Positions 32,304 to 42,713 of a stretch of DNA of 42,788 nucleotides are shown in pieces; positions within the stretch are counted from its first letter, which is position 1; each line of letters begins with the position of its first letter. This DNA comes from Syntrophomonadaceae bacterium (lineage in GTDB: Bacteria > Bacillota > Syntrophomonadia > Syntrophomonadales > Syntrophomonadaceae), in assembly GCA_012518685.1 (NCBI GenBank), contig JAAYRQ010000001.1:1-42788 (forward strand). Reading direction: 5' to 3'. The translations under genes and the position numbers were made by a program. Under the pieces are notes generated by a model that ran no database searches, was not told the origin of the DNA, and saw only the letters and a list, made by a program, of their open reading frames with translations.

Positions 32304-32864
32304 TTAGTTCTTTTGTCTGATTATATTTTGAAGAATGTTATGCCATTCTTTAGCATCTTCAGAGGCTCTTTTATATTCTTCACTATCTTTAGCAACTTCC
32401 CAAAATAAAAAATTAAGTAATACTTGAGGATTTTCTTCGTCTTTAAACGACACCTTTAAATCAATTCTATTAACTAATTCTAAGGCAGCTTCATTTCCAG
32501 TAACTTTACCAACATTTTCACTTAATACCGTAGCTATATTTTGTTTATTATTATTAATTGCTACAGAATCATCAGTTACCTCATATTCAATTATTTCTGA
32601 ACTAATAATATCGTTAAATGTATATGTTAATGGAACAGGGCTCCCCTTTTTCATAGTACATACGGTTAACATTTCTCCACCTTGATTAATAGCTATAGCC
32701 ATATTTTGATTAGCATATTCTTTGGTAGCATCAATGTCATCCATGGAATTTTGTAGTAATTTCATCCTTTTCATAAATTGGTTATATGTTTTCATTCTTT
32801 TATTATTTAGCAACATAAAAGTAAGTATGCCACAAACAATAAGTGTTACTATGATAACCTTCAA
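32304..32864 (-). CDS. Membrane-anchored protein with possible bacterial PH-like domain
   Basis: N-terminal TM (MKVIIVTLIVCGILTFMLL); pattern ...FNDIISSEIIEYEVTDD... LVNRIDLKVSFKDEENPQVLLNFLFWE...EYKRASEDAKEWHNILQNII resembles PH-like modules. TTG start. Confidence 0.55.
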   Translation of the reverse strand: MKVIIVTLIVCGILTFMLLNNKRMKTYNQFMKRMKLLQNSMDDIDATKEYANQNMAIAINQGGEMLTVCTMKKGSPVPLTYTFNDIISSEIIEYEVTDDSVAINNNKQNIATVLSENVGKVTGNEAALELVNRIDLKVSFKDEENPQVLLNFLFWEVAKDSEEYKRASEDAKEWHNILQNIIRQKN

Positions 32865-32897: not shown

Positions 32898-33848
32898 CTA
32901 TAATAAAGCTAAACGAACAAATAATAAGGTCCAGATTATTAACAAAACAAATCTTCCTGATAATGCTAGTTTCTTTATTAAATCATTATCGATATACATT
33001 TTAACTAAATCCTCATATACCCAGCCACCATCTAAGGGGCTAATGGGAAATGAATTAATAAAACCAAAAATGAAATTGCCAATAGCAATATATATTAATA
33101 GTTGGGATGATAGTATATATCCTATTACTATTAGAATAACTGCAAGTAAAGCATTAGTACCAATACTTGCGGCATTAAATCTTAATCTTACTAGATCATC
33201 TGCTGCAAAAAATGTTTCTTCATCAGCTTCTACAAATCCACCTACGATAGAACCAGCAATTAGTCCTATTTCATTAATTCCTATGTCATTGTTTGCTAAA
33301 ACTATTGCATGAGCTAGTTCATGTACAACTAATCCAATAATAATACCTATTAAAACTGCTATACCCTTTATACTTGGAGCTATTCCTTCAGCTATATTTA
33401 TAGAAGGTACATGCCCAACTATTAAAAAATAAGTCAAACCTATCAAACTAAATGCTATCATTAGTATTCCCGTTGTGGCTGCTATTCCTTCATAAAACTT
33501 CCACCATTTTGGATTTCGCTTGGTAAGTCGTTTTATAAATTCAGGTAATCTTTTATTACTAGACATTACCATTCCTGGTTGAGGTATGTTAGTTTCATCG
33601 GCAATATTTTCAAATTCAACTACAAGTTTTTTATAGCGATAGTTTATTTCAGATAATTCTGGAATAACTTGATTATTTTCATCTTTAAAATTATTTAAGT
33701 AATCACCGATATTTCTTAATTTATGATATATTTCATTTAGTGTACTTTTTACTGCATATCCTTTTTCTTGGAAGTTTGATAGCCTAACTAAATCCTTTTC
33801 AATTTTAGTTAGTTGTTTATCTAGCTTAATTAATGTCGATTTTTGCAT
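32898..33848 (-). CDS. M50-family intramembrane metalloprotease (site-2-protease-like) with N-terminal cytosolic domain
   Basis: HEXXH motif (LVVHELAHAIVLANN), C-terminal NSFPISPLDGGWV, several TM helices; ~110 aa charged N-terminal region. Confidence 0.85.
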   Translation of the reverse strand: MQKSTLIKLDKQLTKIEKDLVRLSNFQEKGYAVKSTLNEIYHKLRNIGDYLNNFKDENNQVIPELSEINYRYKKLVVEFENIADETNIPQPGMVMSSNKRLPEFIKRLTKRNPKWWKFYEGIAATTGILMIAFSLIGLTYFLIVGHVPSINIAEGIAPSIKGIAVLIGIIIGLVVHELAHAIVLANNDIGINEIGLIAGSIVGGFVEADEETFFAADDLVRLRFNAASIGTNALLAVILIVIGYILSSQLLIYIAIGNFIFGFINSFPISPLDGGWVYEDLVKMYIDNDLIKKLALSGRFVLLIIWTLLFVRLALL

Positions 33849-34268: not shown

Positions 34269-35924
34269 CTATGCTGCATTTTCTTCAGCAGTAGCTGCCG
34301 CAATTTCTTCAGCAGTCATATTCTTCCGACGCTTGAAGAAGTCAACATAGAAGAATCCAGTTAGAATAATAGCCAATGCTGGAATCCAAGCTAGATGATA
34401 AATACCCTGTACTACATAAGTGTAACTTAGATATCCTGCTCCTGGTAAGGCTATTACAAAGGTAGTAAACAATAATGCAAACCACCAGTAACCAGTAGGT
34501 CTGCCTACAAGTTGTAACCAGATAATAATGGTCATAAATGACATTAATGCTAACAAACTAGATAAAGCTGGGAATAGAATCCAAATATAGAACCACGCAC
34601 CAGACAAGGCTAAGGCCGCACAAGCTGCAATAGAAACTGAAGCTGCTGCCCATTTAGGAGCATCAGTTGGTGGGGTAGGTTTTTTAGTCATTAAAGCAAT
34701 TAGTTCTAAGGAGAATATTCTCATATTTCTAGTACCTGACTCTAGAGTGGTAATCATAAATATACTACCTAATAGTCCACCCCATACTAACCAAGCACTA
34801 TTTGGAATAAAGGTAAATACGCTACCAGCTATTTCAGCATATCCACTTTGCAGAATGAATATCCAACCTTTTCCGATATACTCAGTGTAAACAGCTAATG
34901 GTAGAACTGCAGCAGAAGCTAGAGCAACAAATGCTGTTAAGCCTTCTAATACTTCTCCACCATAACCAATTAAACGAACATATTTTTCATCTGGAACTCT
35001 TCTAGAAGTATAACCTGTTGTCCAGAAGGAGTGCATACCTGTTAAGGCACCACAAGAGATAGTTAAGAATAGCATAGGCCATAGTGGTCCTTCAGAAGCA
35101 TAAGTGATAACTGCAGGTAGTTGTAAAGGTATATTACCAACTATACATCCGATTAATAATACAGTTGCACCAACACACATGAAAATAAAGTTTAAAAAGT
35201 TTCTAGGTTCAACTAATATCCAAGCTGGTATAGATGCTGATATAACTGGATAAATACAGAAAATTGCAAACCAAGCACCAAATGGTAGGCTTATAGGATA
35301 TTTGATACCTAAAACTACAAAAATAGCTACAACTACTACTCCAATTAAGGTTGCTCTAAGAACTGGCCAACCAAACTTGTATATAAGGAAACCCATAATA
35401 ACCCCACATACAGTAAAAGCTACCGTTGGTAGAGTTAATTCAGGGGTAGCTGCGAATAGGTTAGCTAATGCAGTTAGAAAAACTGCACAGAACGCTGCAA
35501 TACTAAACCAACCTAAGAAAATTCCCATTTTCCCTGATCTTTCACTGATTAGTTCAGTAATTAGTGTTCCTATAGTTTTTCCTTGTTTACGCATAGAAAT
35601 ATGCATAGTTGCATAGTCGTGTGGGGAACCTAAGAATATATTACCGAATGTAATATATAAGAATGCTGGTAGAAATCCCCACATAGCACCAGTAGCTCCG
35701 CCCGCTAACGGTGCTCCACCAGCAATTGATGCCCAGTGGTCACCAAAAAGGGTTAGAGGGTTAGCAGGATAAAAGTCAACATCATCTCTGAATTCTACTG
35801 CGGGTACAGGTCTTCCTGGCTTGTATATTAAATATCTTTTCTGAATAAATGCACCTATTACAAAATACCCAAATGCCCATATTACTATACCTATTAAAGT
35901 TAGTGATGTTGTAGTAAATTGCAA
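34269..35924 (-). CDS. cstA: CstA-family carbon starvation/organic-acid or peptide transporter
   Basis: GRPVPAVEFRDDVDFYPANPLTLFGDHWASIAGGAPLAGGATGAMWGFLPAFLYITFGNIFLGSPHDYATMHISMRKQGKTIG is characteristic of CstA. Confidence 0.95.
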   Translation of the reverse strand: MQFTTTSLTLIGIVIWAFGYFVIGAFIQKRYLIYKPGRPVPAVEFRDDVDFYPANPLTLFGDHWASIAGGAPLAGGATGAMWGFLPAFLYITFGNIFLGSPHDYATMHISMRKQGKTIGTLITELISERSGKMGIFLGWFSIAAFCAVFLTALANLFAATPELTLPTVAFTVCGVIMGFLIYKFGWPVLRATLIGVVVVAIFVVLGIKYPISLPFGAWFAIFCIYPVISASIPAWILVEPRNFLNFIFMCVGATVLLIGCIVGNIPLQLPAVITYASEGPLWPMLFLTISCGALTGMHSFWTTGYTSRRVPDEKYVRLIGYGGEVLEGLTAFVALASAAVLPLAVYTEYIGKGWIFILQSGYAEIAGSVFTFIPNSAWLVWGGLLGSIFMITTLESGTRNMRIFSLELIALMTKKPTPPTDAPKWAAASVSIAACAALALSGAWFYIWILFPALSSLLALMSFMTIIIWLQLVGRPTGYWWFALLFTTFVIALPGAGYLSYTYVVQGIYHLAWIPALAIILTGFFYVDFFKRRKNMTAEEIAAATAEENAA

Positions 35925-36441: not shown

Positions 36442-37233
36442 TTATTTTCTTAAAGAACCAGTTTCATCTACAGCCCTTAAGTTTGCTAATTCTTCTGCAG
36501 TTGGTTCAGGAACCATTTTTACATCTGGAGATACTTTTAAGTCCCAACCAGTGTTTTCAATAATTTCTTCTACAGAACTAAAACTAAAATAAGCATCTAA
36601 GATAAACTCTTTTGTTACAGGGTCTGGCCTTAAAATACCTAAGTTAGTAATTATAGCAGCAGGTCCTCCGCCAGGGAAACAATATTTTTCTCTAGCATTA
36701 CCACCATCTAGATAACCTGGAGATGAAATATAGTCAACTCTTTCTAAGAACCTTCTCTTTTCGTGTTGAGCCATAATCATATACTTTTTAGCACCAATAG
36801 CAATATCATTAGCACCACCACTACCATTTAGTCTGGTTTTTGGTAGAGTATATTTGCCTACTTTCCAAGGTTGTTGCCCATCTTCCCATATGCCTGTAGT
36901 ATTGACATTGCCATACTTGTCAACTTGAGCACAGCCAATCACAGCATTATCAACCTTCGCTGAAGCTACTAGCATACATAGAGCATCTATGCCATTAGTA
37001 AAACTAGTGGCATTAGTGGAAATACGGTTATCCTCTATTCCCCAAGGGAGTCCACCTACTGGAGTAGAACCATAGACACCACCTTCGGTAAAAGGGTTCA
37101 TGTTAGGAGCGTGGTTTTTCTTGGCAAAATAACCTGCTAACATACTTAAACCTACACCTAAAATAGCCAATTCGCCGTCTTTAAATTCTCTACCAGTTGC
37201 AATAGCCATCATTTCATTTTTTGTGTAATCCAT
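36442..37233 (-). CDS. Class I CoA-transferase, subunit B (glutaconate CoA-transferase-like)
   Basis: GctB-like: NPFTEGGVYGSTPVGGLPWGIEDNRI (candidate catalytic Glu), VDNAVIGCAQVDKYGNVNTTGI, GSGGANDIAIGAKK. Confidence 0.85.
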   Translation of the reverse strand: MDYTKNEMMAIATGREFKDGELAILGVGLSMLAGYFAKKNHAPNMNPFTEGGVYGSTPVGGLPWGIEDNRISTNATSFTNGIDALCMLVASAKVDNAVIGCAQVDKYGNVNTTGIWEDGQQPWKVGKYTLPKTRLNGSGGANDIAIGAKKYMIMAQHEKRRFLERVDYISSPGYLDGGNAREKYCFPGGGPAAIITNLGILRPDPVTKEFILDAYFSFSSVEEIIENTGWDLKVSPDVKMVPEPTAEELANLRAVDETGSLRK

Positions 37234-37237
37234 ATTC

Positions 37238-38221
37238 TTACCTCCCTCCCATAAGTTCTTTTATTTCTGCATCAGTTTTAATCCACTTTCTGTATGGGTC
37301 CATAAGGAAAGCAGTATCACTTTTGCTAATTAAGTCAACCTTTTCTTTGCCTATCACATCTACTAATTCTTCCGAAGTTTTATAACTGTTAACATATTTT
37401 TCTAAATATTCTTGGGTGCCTTCTTCTGTTTTAAGCATTTTATTCATATAATAGAAATGCTCTTCATCACTATCATAACAACCAGTAGAACAGGCAGGCC
37501 ATACACCCATAGGAGCATATACCACAGCATCAACTAAGAAATCAGGAATTCTAACTAAGTTAGGATATTGACGCATACAATCTGTGTCTACAATATAATC
37601 AGCTTGTAATACTACTTTTTTAGCCGCTCTAGATAACTCAAAACGACTCCATTCGGTTCCTAAAATAATTGCATTACCATTTACATCTGCCATTGTGACA
37701 TGAATTACTGCTAAATCAGGTACTACCGCACTTAATGCACCTACATTTTTACCTGTAAAAGGATCTTGGATTACAGGTATTTTTTTAGTATTTGGATATA
37801 CATCAGGTTCATCAGCCGAACACCATTCTTGGTCAGAGCCAACACTAATGTAAGAAGGCATAAAAGGAATTCCTAATGCACCAGCTAAAATACGAAGTGG
37901 CATACTACCATTGGAATAGTCTTCTAATATAGTTTGTCCACTTTCTACAGCCCTTCTTAATCCATTAGCAAAACCATAGACTTCTAGTCCCGAAAAACCT
38001 ACTTCAATACGAGATATTCCACCAACAGCAGCAAGTAAGTTAATGCCTTGACAGCTACAATGAGAAATACTGTTTATGTCTTTAACCCCTTGACGCACCA
38101 TTTCCCGGAAAAATTCTGTACAATCAGAACCCACCGGTAATCCTCCTCCGTGAGCAAAAGTCATGCCATCCCAAGTATATTTAGAGACAGCTTCTTGCAT
38201 AGATATAAGTTTATTACCCAC
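37238..38221 (-). CDS. Class I CoA-transferase, subunit A (glutaconate CoA-transferase-like)
   Basis: GctA-like: DGMTFAHGGGLPVGSDCTEFFREMVRQGVKDI, NGSMPLRILAGALGIPFMPSYISVGSD, DPFTGKNVGALSAVVPDLAVIHVTMADVNGNAII. Confidence 0.87.
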   Translation of the reverse strand: MGNKLISMQEAVSKYTWDGMTFAHGGGLPVGSDCTEFFREMVRQGVKDINSISHCSCQGINLLAAVGGISRIEVGFSGLEVYGFANGLRRAVESGQTILEDYSNGSMPLRILAGALGIPFMPSYISVGSDQEWCSADEPDVYPNTKKIPVIQDPFTGKNVGALSAVVPDLAVIHVTMADVNGNAIILGTEWSRFELSRAAKKVVLQADYIVDTDCMRQYPNLVRIPDFLVDAVVYAPMGVWPACSTGCYDSDEEHFYYMNKMLKTEEGTQEYLEKYVNSYKTSEELVDVIGKEKVDLISKSDTAFLMDPYRKWIKTDAEIKELMGGR

Positions 38222-38358: not shown

Positions 38359-39231
38359 TTATATGATTCCTTGCTTCTTTAGCAAAGGTGAAGCACTATT
38401 TAATAACTGTCTAAAACCTAATTGTCTATAGGAATATCCATAAGCTAGTCCCATTAACTGAGTAAAGAATATAATTGGCATGTCGTACTTTACGCCCCGA
38501 CTTTTTTCAATAGCACCTAACCTAGTGTCTAAATTGGTATGACACATAGGACAAGCCACTACAATAGCATCGGCACCTGCATTTTTAGCAGATTCTACAA
38601 CTTGTCCACTCAAATCTACCACAATATCCGTTTCCGAAGCAGCATAGCCCCCACCGCAACACTCCGCCTTATGTGACCAGTTTACCGTTTCGATACCAAT
38701 CACCTGTAAAATATCATCCATAGATGTAGGTTGTTCAGGTGAGTCAAAAGCTACTACTTTGGAGGGGCGTGTTAACAAACACCCATAATAAGCGGCTACT
38801 TTAAGCCCAGTTAAAGGTTTTACAACTTTAGAAGCTATCTTTTCGAGCCCTACTTGTTCTGTAAAAAATTGCACCAAGTTTGTAACCTCTGGTTCTACAG
38901 GGGCAGGTGCATTAATAATTTCGGCCACTTCTTTAGCTAATTCTGGATTATTTCTTAATTCATAAGAAGCCGTCTTCAACCTGCCAAAACAACCTGCACA
39001 AGGTACAGTTATCATGTCCAAATTCATGTTTTTCGCTATATTAAGATTTCTGGCACCTAGACTTACACTTAGTTTGTGATTTAAACTGTGGGCAGCTGTA
39101 GCTCCACAACAGTTCCAGTCCTCTATTTCTTGTAAATTGATGTTTAATTTATCACAAACCAGATGAGTTGAGGAATTATATGCCCTCGACAAACCGTGAA
39201 GTGAACATCCAGGAAAATACGCTACATTCAT
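38359..39231 (-). CDS. hdrB2: Heterodisulfide-reductase subunit B-like protein with two CCG domains (second HdrB)
   Basis: YFPGCSLHG...WNCCGATAAHS...CAGCFG and YYGCLLTRP...ECCGGGYA...CPMCHTNLD. Confidence 0.9.
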   Translation of the reverse strand: MNVAYFPGCSLHGLSRAYNSSTHLVCDKLNINLQEIEDWNCCGATAAHSLNHKLSVSLGARNLNIAKNMNLDMITVPCAGCFGRLKTASYELRNNPELAKEVAEIINAPAPVEPEVTNLVQFFTEQVGLEKIASKVVKPLTGLKVAAYYGCLLTRPSKVVAFDSPEQPTSMDDILQVIGIETVNWSHKAECCGGGYAASETDIVVDLSGQVVESAKNAGADAIVVACPMCHTNLDTRLGAIEKSRGVKYDMPIIFFTQLMGLAYGYSYRQLGFRQLLNSASPLLKKQGII

Positions 39232-39235
39232 CGGT

Positions 39236-39832
39236 TTACCCCTTTCTTAGTGAAGTCATTTTGAAAATACGACGAGTTTCATCTCTTTTTTTCATCTTAG
39301 GTGTAAAAGGATTAACCTTTCCCTTAAAGAACATTTTCATACCAGGATCAAAAACATCTTTAAAATAATCACCCGTTTTTAGATTAAATTCCATAGCTAA
39401 GAAGCCTTCTTCTACTCTGCCACCCTTTTCAATATGTCCTAACATAAGTTCATGGAAAACTAAAACTTGTTCTCGGGTAGCAGGAATTTGGTTCTTATAA
39501 GCAACTTCCCTTAAATAATCCATTATTCTGGGAATATCAATGCTAGCTGGACAACGGTCAACACATAATTGGCAGGATACACAAGTCCATAAAGAGTCCA
39601 TTTTTAAAAGCGAGTCAACTTCACCCATCTTAATTAATTTCACTACCTGTCTAGCAGTAATATCAAATATATGGGTATTAGAACAACCACCAGAACACTT
39701 ACCACATTCCAAACAAGTGTTTAAATCAATACCACAATTATCTAAAAGCTCTTGTTGGAAAGAATTATCTATTTCATCAAGCTTAATAGCCTTGAAAAAA
39801 TCTGCCGTCATAGGAGTAGTTGAACTAGGCAT
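39236..39832 (-). CDS. hdrC2: Heterodisulfide-reductase subunit C-like protein with two 4Fe-4S motifs (second HdrC)
   Basis: CLECGKCSGGCSN and CVSCQLCVDRCPASIDIPRIMDYLRE. Confidence 0.88.
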   Translation of the reverse strand: MPSSTTPMTADFFKAIKLDEIDNSFQQELLDNCGIDLNTCLECGKCSGGCSNTHIFDITARQVVKLIKMGEVDSLLKMDSLWTCVSCQLCVDRCPASIDIPRIMDYLREVAYKNQIPATREQVLVFHELMLGHIEKGGRVEEGFLAMEFNLKTGDYFKDVFDPGMKMFFKGKVNPFTPKMKKRDETRRIFKMTSLRKG

Positions 39833-39843
39833 ATTATTCCCTC

Positions 39844-40875
39844 CTAATTCTCTTGATTAAACAGGGCTAATACTTGGGCTGCTGCTGCTCCACCTTGATG
39901 CATAGCTCCTAAGCTTTCCACAGCAAAACTACAAGCACCAGCATAATAAATGCGCTCCCCTGTTTTCATAACTTCATTAGTTTCATAATCTATAAAGCCA
40001 TATTTATCCGTTTTTACGGGAAATATATTGGACATTTCCTTCGTTCCTGCACTAGGTTCAAGTGCCGCAGCTAAGACAACCATGTCTGCGGTTACTTCAA
40101 TAGGCATACCCCTTAAAGTATCTTCCGCTCTTATTAATAAACGACCATCTTCAGGTAATACTTTAGCAGGACGACCTCTTACATACTTAACTTTTTTATC
40201 TTCGATAACCGAGCGTACAAATTCTTCATACTCTCTGCCTGCAGCTCTATAGTCCATATAAAAGACATAACACTTAGTATCAGGAAACATTTCTTTTACT
40301 ACGCCAGCTTGCTTAGCTGTGTACATACAGCAGATTTTTGAGCAATATGGATAGCCCTTAGAACGATCCCTAGAGCCAACACATTTAAAGAAAGCTACTG
40401 TCTTAGGGGGAGTAACTTTGTCTTTATTAGTAGCCCATTCCTTTAATATTTCTTCAAATTCTAAAGAATTAACTACATTATCATAATGTCCATAGCCATA
40501 TTCGCCGTGTGAAGTTACATCTAGCATTTGCGAACCAGTTGCTATAACTACAGCATCTACTTCAACTTCTTTAGCTTCACTTTTGTTTTGTAATTTGACT
40601 AGATAGCTATTAGGCTTTTGATCGGCACTAATCACTTTAGTTTGGGTCATAACCGTAATATTAGGACATTCATTCAATTGTTCTACCTTATATTTAATAA
40701 GATCAGCCGGGTTTTCATAACGAGGATAGCTGTTGTATAGTTTTTCTAAAACTCCGCCTAAAGATTCTGCTACTTCTACTAATAAAACTTTATAACCCGA
40801 CTGACCAATTTTTAATGCAGCTTCTATACCAGCAATGCCGCCTCCAATTACAAGGGCAGTTTTCGTTTCACTCAT
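39844..40875 (-). CDS. hdrA: Short HdrA-like flavoprotein with one 4Fe-4S site, no ferredoxin domains (sHdrA-like)
   Basis: ALVIGGGIAGIEAALKIGQSGYKVLLVE, FFKCVGSRDRSKGYPYCSKICCMYTAKQA (HdrA cluster-binding motif), VYFMDYRA-like FYMDYRAAG, AGACSFAVESLGAMHQGGAAAAQVL. ATG 40873-40875 with AAGGAG RBS. Confidence 0.9.
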   Translation of the reverse strand: MSETKTALVIGGGIAGIEAALKIGQSGYKVLLVEVAESLGGVLEKLYNSYPRYENPADLIKYKVEQLNECPNITVMTQTKVISADQKPNSYLVKLQNKSEAKEVEVDAVVIATGSQMLDVTSHGEYGYGHYDNVVNSLEFEEILKEWATNKDKVTPPKTVAFFKCVGSRDRSKGYPYCSKICCMYTAKQAGVVKEMFPDTKCYVFYMDYRAAGREYEEFVRSVIEDKKVKYVRGRPAKVLPEDGRLLIRAEDTLRGMPIEVTADMVVLAAALEPSAGTKEMSNIFPVKTDKYGFIDYETNEVMKTGERIYYAGACSFAVESLGAMHQGGAAAAQVLALFNQEN

Positions 40876-40879
40876 TGAA

Positions 40880-41827
40880 CTATTCTCCTTTCCCAAATCC
40901 AAGTCTATTTAAAATATCGTCAACTGGAATAGTATTAGCGTTAAAGCCTAATTTTTCAACTGGCACACCAATACATAAGCCTATTAGTTGTGCTAAATCT
41001 ATAACTGGAATATTATAAGGCCCAAAGCCCCTATCCATAAGATTTTTTTGTTCCCTATCTAGGGCAACATTACAACCTGGACATACGGTAGTCATTAATT
41101 CTACCCCTTCTTCTTTAGCACTATCTAATTTGCGGGCTAGATGTGGTTGTACTACAGATTCCCTGTGGGTAAAACCTCTACCCACTGACGCTCCACAACA
41201 CATTCTTCTTTCCTTAAAAAATACAGGAACTCCGCCTAAGGCTTCATATATTTCCTCATGAAAAGTAGGCAAATCCCCATCATCTAGAACCCCATACAAC
41301 TGTGATAGATAGTGACATCCATAGTGAGAAGCAACTCTCAAACCATTTAAAGGATGTATTACTAATTCCTTAATTTTATCTATTAGGAGATAGTACAACT
41401 CTTGGACATGAATGATTCTGGTTTCATTTTTATATTCATAACCCCATTGGCTAATTAGTTGGTTAGACATTTTTTTATACTCTGGGTTGTGGTTAAGAAT
41501 ATGAGCTAGTTCAGTATTGTAACCAAAACAGCCATTGCAGAACATATAGGTGTCTAAGCCATATCTTTGTTCTACTAAAGCTAAGTTTCTCGCAGTTACA
41601 GCTAAAGCTGGTTCAGGGGGAAAGCCAGAACAAGTTAGGATATACCCCGAACAGCAAGTCTGATCGGCATCCATAATTACTTCTACCCCTAATTTTTTTA
41701 ATACTTCTTTAACAGCACTTTCTGTTCCAGGGTATTCCATACTCCCCGTACAACTCCGAAAAAGAAATATTTTTTCAGGTATTTCACCAATTCTTTCCTT
41801 AGGTGATATTACAAGTGGTTTATTCAT
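40880..41827 (-). CDS. hdrB1: Heterodisulfide-reductase subunit B-like protein with two CCG domains (first HdrB)
   Basis: FRSCTGSMEYPGTE...QTCCSGY...FCNGCFG and SHYGCHYLSQLYG...RMCCGASVG...VCPGCNVALD. ATG 41825-41827 overlaps the hdrC1 stop. Confidence 0.9.
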   Translation of the reverse strand: MNKPLVISPKERIGEIPEKIFLFRSCTGSMEYPGTESAVKEVLKKLGVEVIMDADQTCCSGYILTCSGFPPEPALAVTARNLALVEQRYGLDTYMFCNGCFGYNTELAHILNHNPEYKKMSNQLISQWGYEYKNETRIIHVQELYYLLIDKIKELVIHPLNGLRVASHYGCHYLSQLYGVLDDGDLPTFHEEIYEALGGVPVFFKERRMCCGASVGRGFTHRESVVQPHLARKLDSAKEEGVELMTTVCPGCNVALDREQKNLMDRGFGPYNIPVIDLAQLIGLCIGVPVEKLGFNANTIPVDDILNRLGFGKGE

Positions 41828-42413
41828 TAGTAACACCCCCCCTTTCCAGACTAAAATTAACATCCTTTTCAACCATTTCTTCTAACTTTTCCATCCATTC
41901 AATAGCACCAGTTTGTTCAAATATTGCTCGATATTCTGCAATGGCCTTTTCCGAAACTTCTGGCCATTCTTCAACTCCAATGGATGTACGCAACCTATTG
42001 ATTTTTTGTACTCCTCTTTCACCTGGAACAAAAGTCAAACCTTTATCAAAAGCCCTAAAACCATATTTATTAATGGGTTTTACATATTTTAGTCCATAAT
42101 TATTCTCTAATGCCATAAATCTTAGTTGCATCATTAACAGTGGAAAATGGATATCAACTGGACATACCCTATAACAGTTAGCACACCAAAAACATCTCCA
42201 TATTTCTTCACTTTCTAATAATCTTGCAGTATTTCCAGTCAGAATCTCACTGATTACAAACCTGGGATTATAAGACGGTGTTATTGCTGCTACTGGACAG
42301 TTACCCGTACATTTACCACACTGTAAGCAATTTTCTAGGTTTTCTACCAAATTATACTTGTCAATTTCACCATAAAGATTATCCCGCCAATCTTTATCGC
42401 GTTCTCTTGGCAT
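41820..42413 (-). CDS. hdrC1: Heterodisulfide-reductase subunit C-like protein with two 4Fe-4S motifs (first HdrC)
   Basis: CLQCGKCTGNCPV and CFWCANCYRVCPVDIHFPLLMMQLR. Confidence 0.9.
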   Translation of the reverse strand: MPRERDKDWRDNLYGEIDKYNLVENLENCLQCGKCTGNCPVAAITPSYNPRFVISEILTGNTARLLESEEIWRCFWCANCYRVCPVDIHFPLLMMQLRFMALENNYGLKYVKPINKYGFRAFDKGLTFVPGERGVQKINRLRTSIGVEEWPEVSEKAIAEYRAIFEQTGAIEWMEKLEEMVEKDVNFSLERGGVTNE

Positions 42414-42662
42414 ATTTCACATCTCCCTTATAATTAAATTAGATGAACATCTATCAACCAAATATTGTGCAGTAAAAAATATAATTAAACTTCAGCAGAA
42501 TAAATATGCAAATAATATGCCAGTTATTAAGTAAAAATGTTTTTCTGAAAATTTTAGCTATTTTATACTCATATTCAGTAAATACATATATGTTTTTCAA
42601 AATAAGCCGATATTTATAAATCTGATCAGTTAATGAGATAGGCAAATTACATAATTTAAAAC

Positions 42663-42713
42663 AAAAAAGTGTCAGTTTCTTAGATATGTTTTTTAAGAAA
42701 CTGACACCTTTTT
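42663..42713. repeat. Long inverted repeat (20-bp arms), bidirectional terminator or REP-like element
   Basis: AAAAAAGTGTCAGTTTCTTA - 11 nt - TAAGAAACTGACACCTTTTT, one mismatch. Confidence 0.7.

Follow-up and report, generated by a model that had tools for sequence, protein, structure and literature searches.

The window, a stretch of 42,788 nucleotides (contig C3) from a Syntrophomonadaceae genome of 1.93 Mb in 188 contigs (G000), carries on its minus strand five genes for an Hdr-like complex, in the transcription order hdrC1-B1-A-C2-B2, followed by genes for a GctAB-like coenzyme A (CoA) transferase and then for a CstA-like transporter. The nearest relatives of this genome bear the GTDB labels Syntrophomonadaceae or Syntrophomonas, and sporulation genes (for SpoIIGA, SigE, SigG, SpoVD and SpoVE) lie on the same contig as the hdr genes. 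An earlier note on this DNA had described five tightly packed minus-strand genes in the order C-B-A-C-B. The open reading frames (ORFs) and their spacing agree: hdrC1 and hdrB1 share 8 nt, and the remaining hdr intergenic gaps are 4-11 nt. The unit extends further than that note had it, running on into the CoA-transferase subunits and the transporter.

Subunits of the Hdr-like complex

HdrC1 (41820..42413, 197 aa) and HdrC2 (39236..39832, 198 aa) each contain two four-Cys [4Fe-4S] cluster motifs. HdrB1 (40880..41827, 315 aa) and HdrB2 (38359..39231, 290 aa), both included in the HdrB tree described below, each contain two complete CCG motifs of the form CX(31-39)CCX(34-37)CXXC. The motifs are invariant across 13-14 orthologs. 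The earlier assignment of two HdrC and two HdrB proteins, with two full motifs in each HdrB, is confirmed. The start of HdrB1 was set at 41827 by alignment, as this start is conserved; the ORF itself opens at 41872. With two CCG motifs per HdrB and two cluster motifs per HdrC, a chain of clusters can run from each HdrBC arm to the flavin of HdrA.

HdrA (39844..40875) is a bare core of 343 aa with a flavin adenine dinucleotide (FAD) site and a CX12CXXXCC cluster motif. Its length is counted from the ATG at 40875, the ORF opening at 40902, and no ferredoxin domain is appended, just as the earlier note had it. The four cysteines C174, C187, C191 and C192 are invariant in the ortholog alignment. 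E150 is present in 26 of 26 aligned sequences and K197 in 24 of 26; every operon member retains K197 except one reduced locus (G188), which has Arg at this position. In the alignment with Methanothermococcus HdrA, the two residues fall on E356 and K409, a Glu/Lys pair near FAD N5 reported as a proposed mark of bifurcating HdrA (PMC12054007). As HdrA keeps this pair, electron bifurcation between the two HdrBC arms is possible. The AlphaFold model of HdrA (predicted local distance difference test score 87.8) aligns with sHdrA (6tjr) along the entire length of either protein, with template modelling scores of 0.88/0.91. This is the sole full-length structural match; methanogen HdrA is matched only partially.

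Conservation, control and phylogeny of the operon

Orthologs of HdrB1, taken as representing the operon, were found in 21 of the 63 genomes of the order Syntrophomonadales and in four more genomes of the phylum sample (52-60% identity). Many of the compared genomes are metagenome-assembled, so an absence can reflect an assembly gap. Gene order and sequence are kept in about 20 genomes, and chance is therefore excluded as an explanation for the five-gene set. The recurrent neighbourhood consists of a CBS-PAS-AAA sigma-54 activator, hdrC1-B1-A-C2-B2, a GctAB-like transferase, an MFS or CstA transporter, and a second transferase-like pair. A CoA-transferase is adjacent or close to the hdr genes in nearly all loci with enough contig, counting those of Syntrophomonadales and of G079.

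In the window, the transferase comprises an alpha subunit of the glutaconate (GctA) type (37238..38221; PF01144; best PDB match 1poi_A) and a beta subunit of the GctB type (36442..37233; PF01144; 1poi_B, E=1.6e-44). E50 of the beta subunit, within the sequence FTEGGV, aligns with the catalytic Glu of GctB and is invariant in 11 orthologs. In two genomes (G213 and G261), a canonical AtoDA-type pair directly upstream of hdrC1 stands in for the GctAB-like pair, indicating that the activating role is retained although the type of enzyme differs. The CstA-family transporter (34269..35924; PF02554) keeps its position in several relatives; in the remaining ones an MFS transporter sits in its place, and these carriers resemble organic-acid carriers. 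Downstream of CstA lie an M50-type peptidase (32898-33848) and a small protein (32304-32864), whose place is kept in G022, G035, G364, G433 and G434.

The sigma-54 activator is closest to PrdR and is encoded upstream of the operon in most relatives; the contig analysed here ends short of the gene expected at this point. A predicted sigma-54 (-24/-12) promoter, TGGCATATTATTTGCA, lies on the minus strand at 42507..42522, 109 nt upstream of hdrC1. Of 20 hdrC1-led operons, 15 have such a promoter ahead of the first gene, against a background of 0.023 per region, and three operons from other orders have one too. Further out, at 42663-42707, a strong inverted repeat (GTGTCAGTTTCTTA...TAAGAAACTGACAC) is followed by the T-run TTTTTT and is likely the terminator of a gene beyond the contig end.

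Some loci depart from this pattern. What is left in the reduced locus of G188 is a fused HdrC-HdrB, HdrA and the second transferase-like pair. The operon, again next to CstA and M50 genes, also occurs on a contig assigned to Desulfovibrionaceae (L040), which either belongs to Syntrophomonadales and was mis-binned or reflects a transfer. A plasmid search with HdrA returned only two weak records. In the open-access literature on S. lipocalidus and other syntrophs we found Flox-Hdr mentioned and not this operon, and a review of HdrA(BC) modules may cover relatives.

Phylogenetic trees were built from one phylum together with a few actinobacterial sequences and methanogen sequences from the PDB, a sampling in which authenticated sHdr proteins are not included. 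In the HdrA core tree, the operon HdrAs cluster with their relatives of CoA-transferase-linked operons (99/99), separately from the long Flox/MvhD-type HdrAs of the same genomes, which fall with actinobacterial ones (97/95), and from MetFV-linked HdrA (100/99). This cluster is weakly sister (85/54) to three Bacillota HdrAs, those of loci L123-L125. In the HdrB tree, the operon B1 is sister to the B1 of L123-L125 (100/99), and the operon B2 lies in the other half, with the B2 of L123-L125 and Flox HdrB. As B1 and B2 occupy separate halves of the tree, they are old and distinct paralogues. The earlier note had named clustering with Flox/MvhD-type HdrA as evidence that would count against its proposal. 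No such clustering is seen, also when the long HdrA of the window's own genome is included, and a Flox/MvhD relative is rejected on both the HdrA tree and the architecture, a bare core with no such partner genes in the operon. Identity with MetFV-HdrA was rejected as well: the operon contains no MetF or MetV, its HdrA belongs to a separate clade, and MetFV-linked HdrA is seen at other loci (L058-L065) in other genomes. The long HdrA of the window's genome (L007; G000:C94:5160-6461) has a TGA in frame, as do most of the family's long HdrAs, and is probably a selenocysteine HdrA.

A second transferase-like pair with candidate selenocysteine

The second CoA-transferase-like pair, termed here CoAT2, is present in 16 of the 21 operon genomes, often within the operon. 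Its B subunit lacks the catalytic Glu. Sixteen Syntrophomonadales genomes and four from outside the order encode an A subunit with a single in-frame TGA. The selenocysteine (Sec) candidates, all from genomes other than that of the window (L134-L149, L119-L122 and L040; for example G038:C1:1233546-1234364), combine the conserved TGA with a hairpin resembling a selenocysteine insertion sequence. The hairpin has 6 bp and lies 18 nt past the start of the TGA; pairing holds in each of the 17 sequences aligned, and two of its base pairs show changes in both partners. Homologs carry Sec, Cys or Glu at the TGA position. When two PDB alignments are combined ungapped, the Sec site corresponds to Glu105 of the steroid-ring hydrolase IpdA, a position at which the 6coj chain differs from 6co6. 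We take this Glu to be catalytic in IpdA. No NCBIfam selenoprotein model matches the CoAT2 A subunit, and a text search of a review of prokaryotic selenoproteins gave no CoA-transferase entry. From these sequence features, the A subunit is a candidate for an undescribed selenoprotein family among CoA-transferase-like proteins.

CoAT2 and the hdr operon occur together in 16 of the 17 genomes that have CoAT2, a count uncorrected for relatedness. CoAT2 is not required for the operon, as five operon genomes lack it: the window's own genome, G035, G434, G436 and G439. Nor is it confined to these loci. Relatives with Sec (L183, L184 and L186) and with Cys (L181, L182 and L185) are encoded away from hdr genes, and thus the enzyme has uses without the Hdr complex. 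One could imagine that the complex and the Sec enzyme constitute a new redox system, in which a selenol at an acyl-CoA site is coupled to non-cubane iron-sulfur clusters. We consider this decidedly unlikely. If it were true, anaerobes would be able to reduce or oxidise CoA-activated acids in a step found in no known pathway, and the Sec partner would have been replaced or lost in the window's genome.

Possible function and relation to known systems

With moderate confidence, we propose that the gene products form a soluble (HdrC1B1)-HdrA-(C2B2) electron-transfer complex that serves the oxidation or reduction of a CoA-activated organic acid. Judging by the neighbouring genes, the CstA or MFS carrier would bring the acid into the cell, where the GctAB-like transferase would convert it to its CoA ester. 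Electrons released in, or required by, a later step on the activated acid would then enter or leave through the Hdr complex, passing from one HdrBC arm, through its non-cubane clusters and the HdrA flavin, to the other arm. The assembly of the subunits into a single complex, their action on a product of this acid and the electron path are inferred. The hdr and CoA-transferase genes are likely co-transcribed. Several observations weigh against the proposal. HdrB2 and the transferase genes are separated by a 137-bp gap, and the operon encodes no enzyme acting on the acyl chain (dehydrogenase, hydratase or reductase). Furthermore, two genomes that are apparently Syntrophomonas wolfei (G021 and G034) lack the operon, which is therefore not needed for butyrate oxidation.

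The gene order raises the question whether the complex is a true sHdr, oxidising persulfide sulfur to sulfite with the help of carrier proteins whose genes lie at other sites in the genome. The order is that of sHdr save for the missing H gene, HdrA is short and matches 6tjr structurally, and the window's genome contains two TusA-domain genes. However, the published type I is a syntenic shdrC1B1A-H-C2B2 and type II is C1B1A-H-B3 with etfAB (PMC11582611), so that both need H. The earlier note had reported the 'hyp' (sHdrH) gene missing between A and C2; it is indeed absent there, as it is from the orthologous operons, and no gene for a lipoate-binding protein, DsrE or TusA is among the annotated window genes. 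The short HdrA core without ferredoxin domains is as in type I; type II does not fit, with C2 and B2 separate, no H, and no etfAB among the annotated window genes. LbpA has been described as inevitably associated with the sHdr pathway (PMC6067878). A search for GcvH/LbpA found none in two operon genomes (G031 and G002) and no full-length one in two others (G079 and G261). In the window's genome, the sole GcvH-like gene lies between gcvT and gcvPA, as read from the neighbouring translations, and hence in a glycine cleavage cluster. That genome has two HdrA genes; a second short HdrA and an LbpA were not found in it, nor, accordingly, was the complete unlinked sHdr/lbpA locus that the earlier note had raised as a counter-indication. 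Known members of the host family are, moreover, anaerobic syntrophs (PMC5017805). As the H gene and LbpA, two defining features, are missing, the complex is not filed as sHdr: identity with it is rejected on these grounds, and sulfur oxidation with remote carriers is exceedingly improbable. The complex is not a member of the published sHdr systems, has the same architecture, and is probably not a sulfur-oxidation system. The earlier proposal of a variant sHdr-like complex in CoA-thioester-linked metabolism thus stands in part: the layout without sulfur partners and the conserved CoA-transferases, transporters and sigma-54 control favour it, and as to descent the trees only place B1 and, weakly, HdrA as sister to the L123-L125 family.

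A rather unlikely alternative is thiol/disulfide chemistry: one HdrB arm would reduce or form a disulfide or selenenylsulfide in a thiol cofactor, CoA itself or a Sec/Cys CoA-transferase-like partner, the other arm supplying electrons and the transferases handling the acyl part only. HdrB non-cubane clusters cleave disulfides in methanogens (5odc), both HdrBs here keep both motifs, and the association of Sec-CoAT2 with the complex, given above, has a Fisher P of about 1e-9, again uncorrected for relatedness. The five operon genomes without Sec-CoAT2 show, however, that it is not an obligatory partner; its relatives also occur away from hdr genes, and no disulfide substrate is known. We regard it as quite improbable that the genes encode a re-shuffled Flox-Hdr or MvhD-Hdr complex which reduces ferredoxin by bifurcation, with NADH or H2 as electron source. 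The E150/K197 pair is kept and syntrophs are known to need reverse electron flow, but the operon contains no FlxABCD, MvhD or ferredoxin domains, and the same genome encodes a separate long HdrA with HdrB and HdrC on contig C94, its HdrA in another clade.

The C1-B1-A-C2-B2 layout, usually taken for sulfur oxidation in genome surveys, also occurs in an acid-activation operon of anaerobic syntrophs, and annotation by gene order only could therefore call false sulfur oxidisers. A bare HdrA with two HdrBC arms is also a simple case for testing the role of the HdrA flavin without ferredoxin domains, and the operon points to the candidate selenoprotein family described above.

Compared with methanogen HdrABC and bacterial Flox-Hdr, the complex shares the homologous HdrA core, two-CCG HdrB, HdrC diclusters and the bifurcation-type Glu/Lys pair, and differs in lacking inserted or terminal ferredoxin domains and an MvhD/Flx partner, in its duplicated HdrBC arms and in its separate clade. 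The operon transferase has GctAB (1poi) as best PDB match for both subunits and keeps the catalytic Glu, although the similarity is only moderate. A Bacillota family with hdrC1-B1-A-(HdrC-like)-C2-B2 (G166, G083 and G414; L123-L125) shares the gene order, a sister B1 clade, a weakly sister HdrA and the absence of an adjoining LbpA. It differs in having a further small HdrC-like gene after A and before C2, two small conserved upstream proteins (one Met-rich, MMKMMPGM) and no nearby CoA-transferase. With sHdr type I, the complex has in common the order C1-B1-A-C2-B2, two HdrB and two HdrC, the short HdrA core and the full-length fold of sHdrA. In contrast to type I, the operon lacks the H gene, LbpA and linked lipoate-assembly or sulfurtransferase genes, and is associated with CoA-transferases, acid transporters and sigma-54 control.

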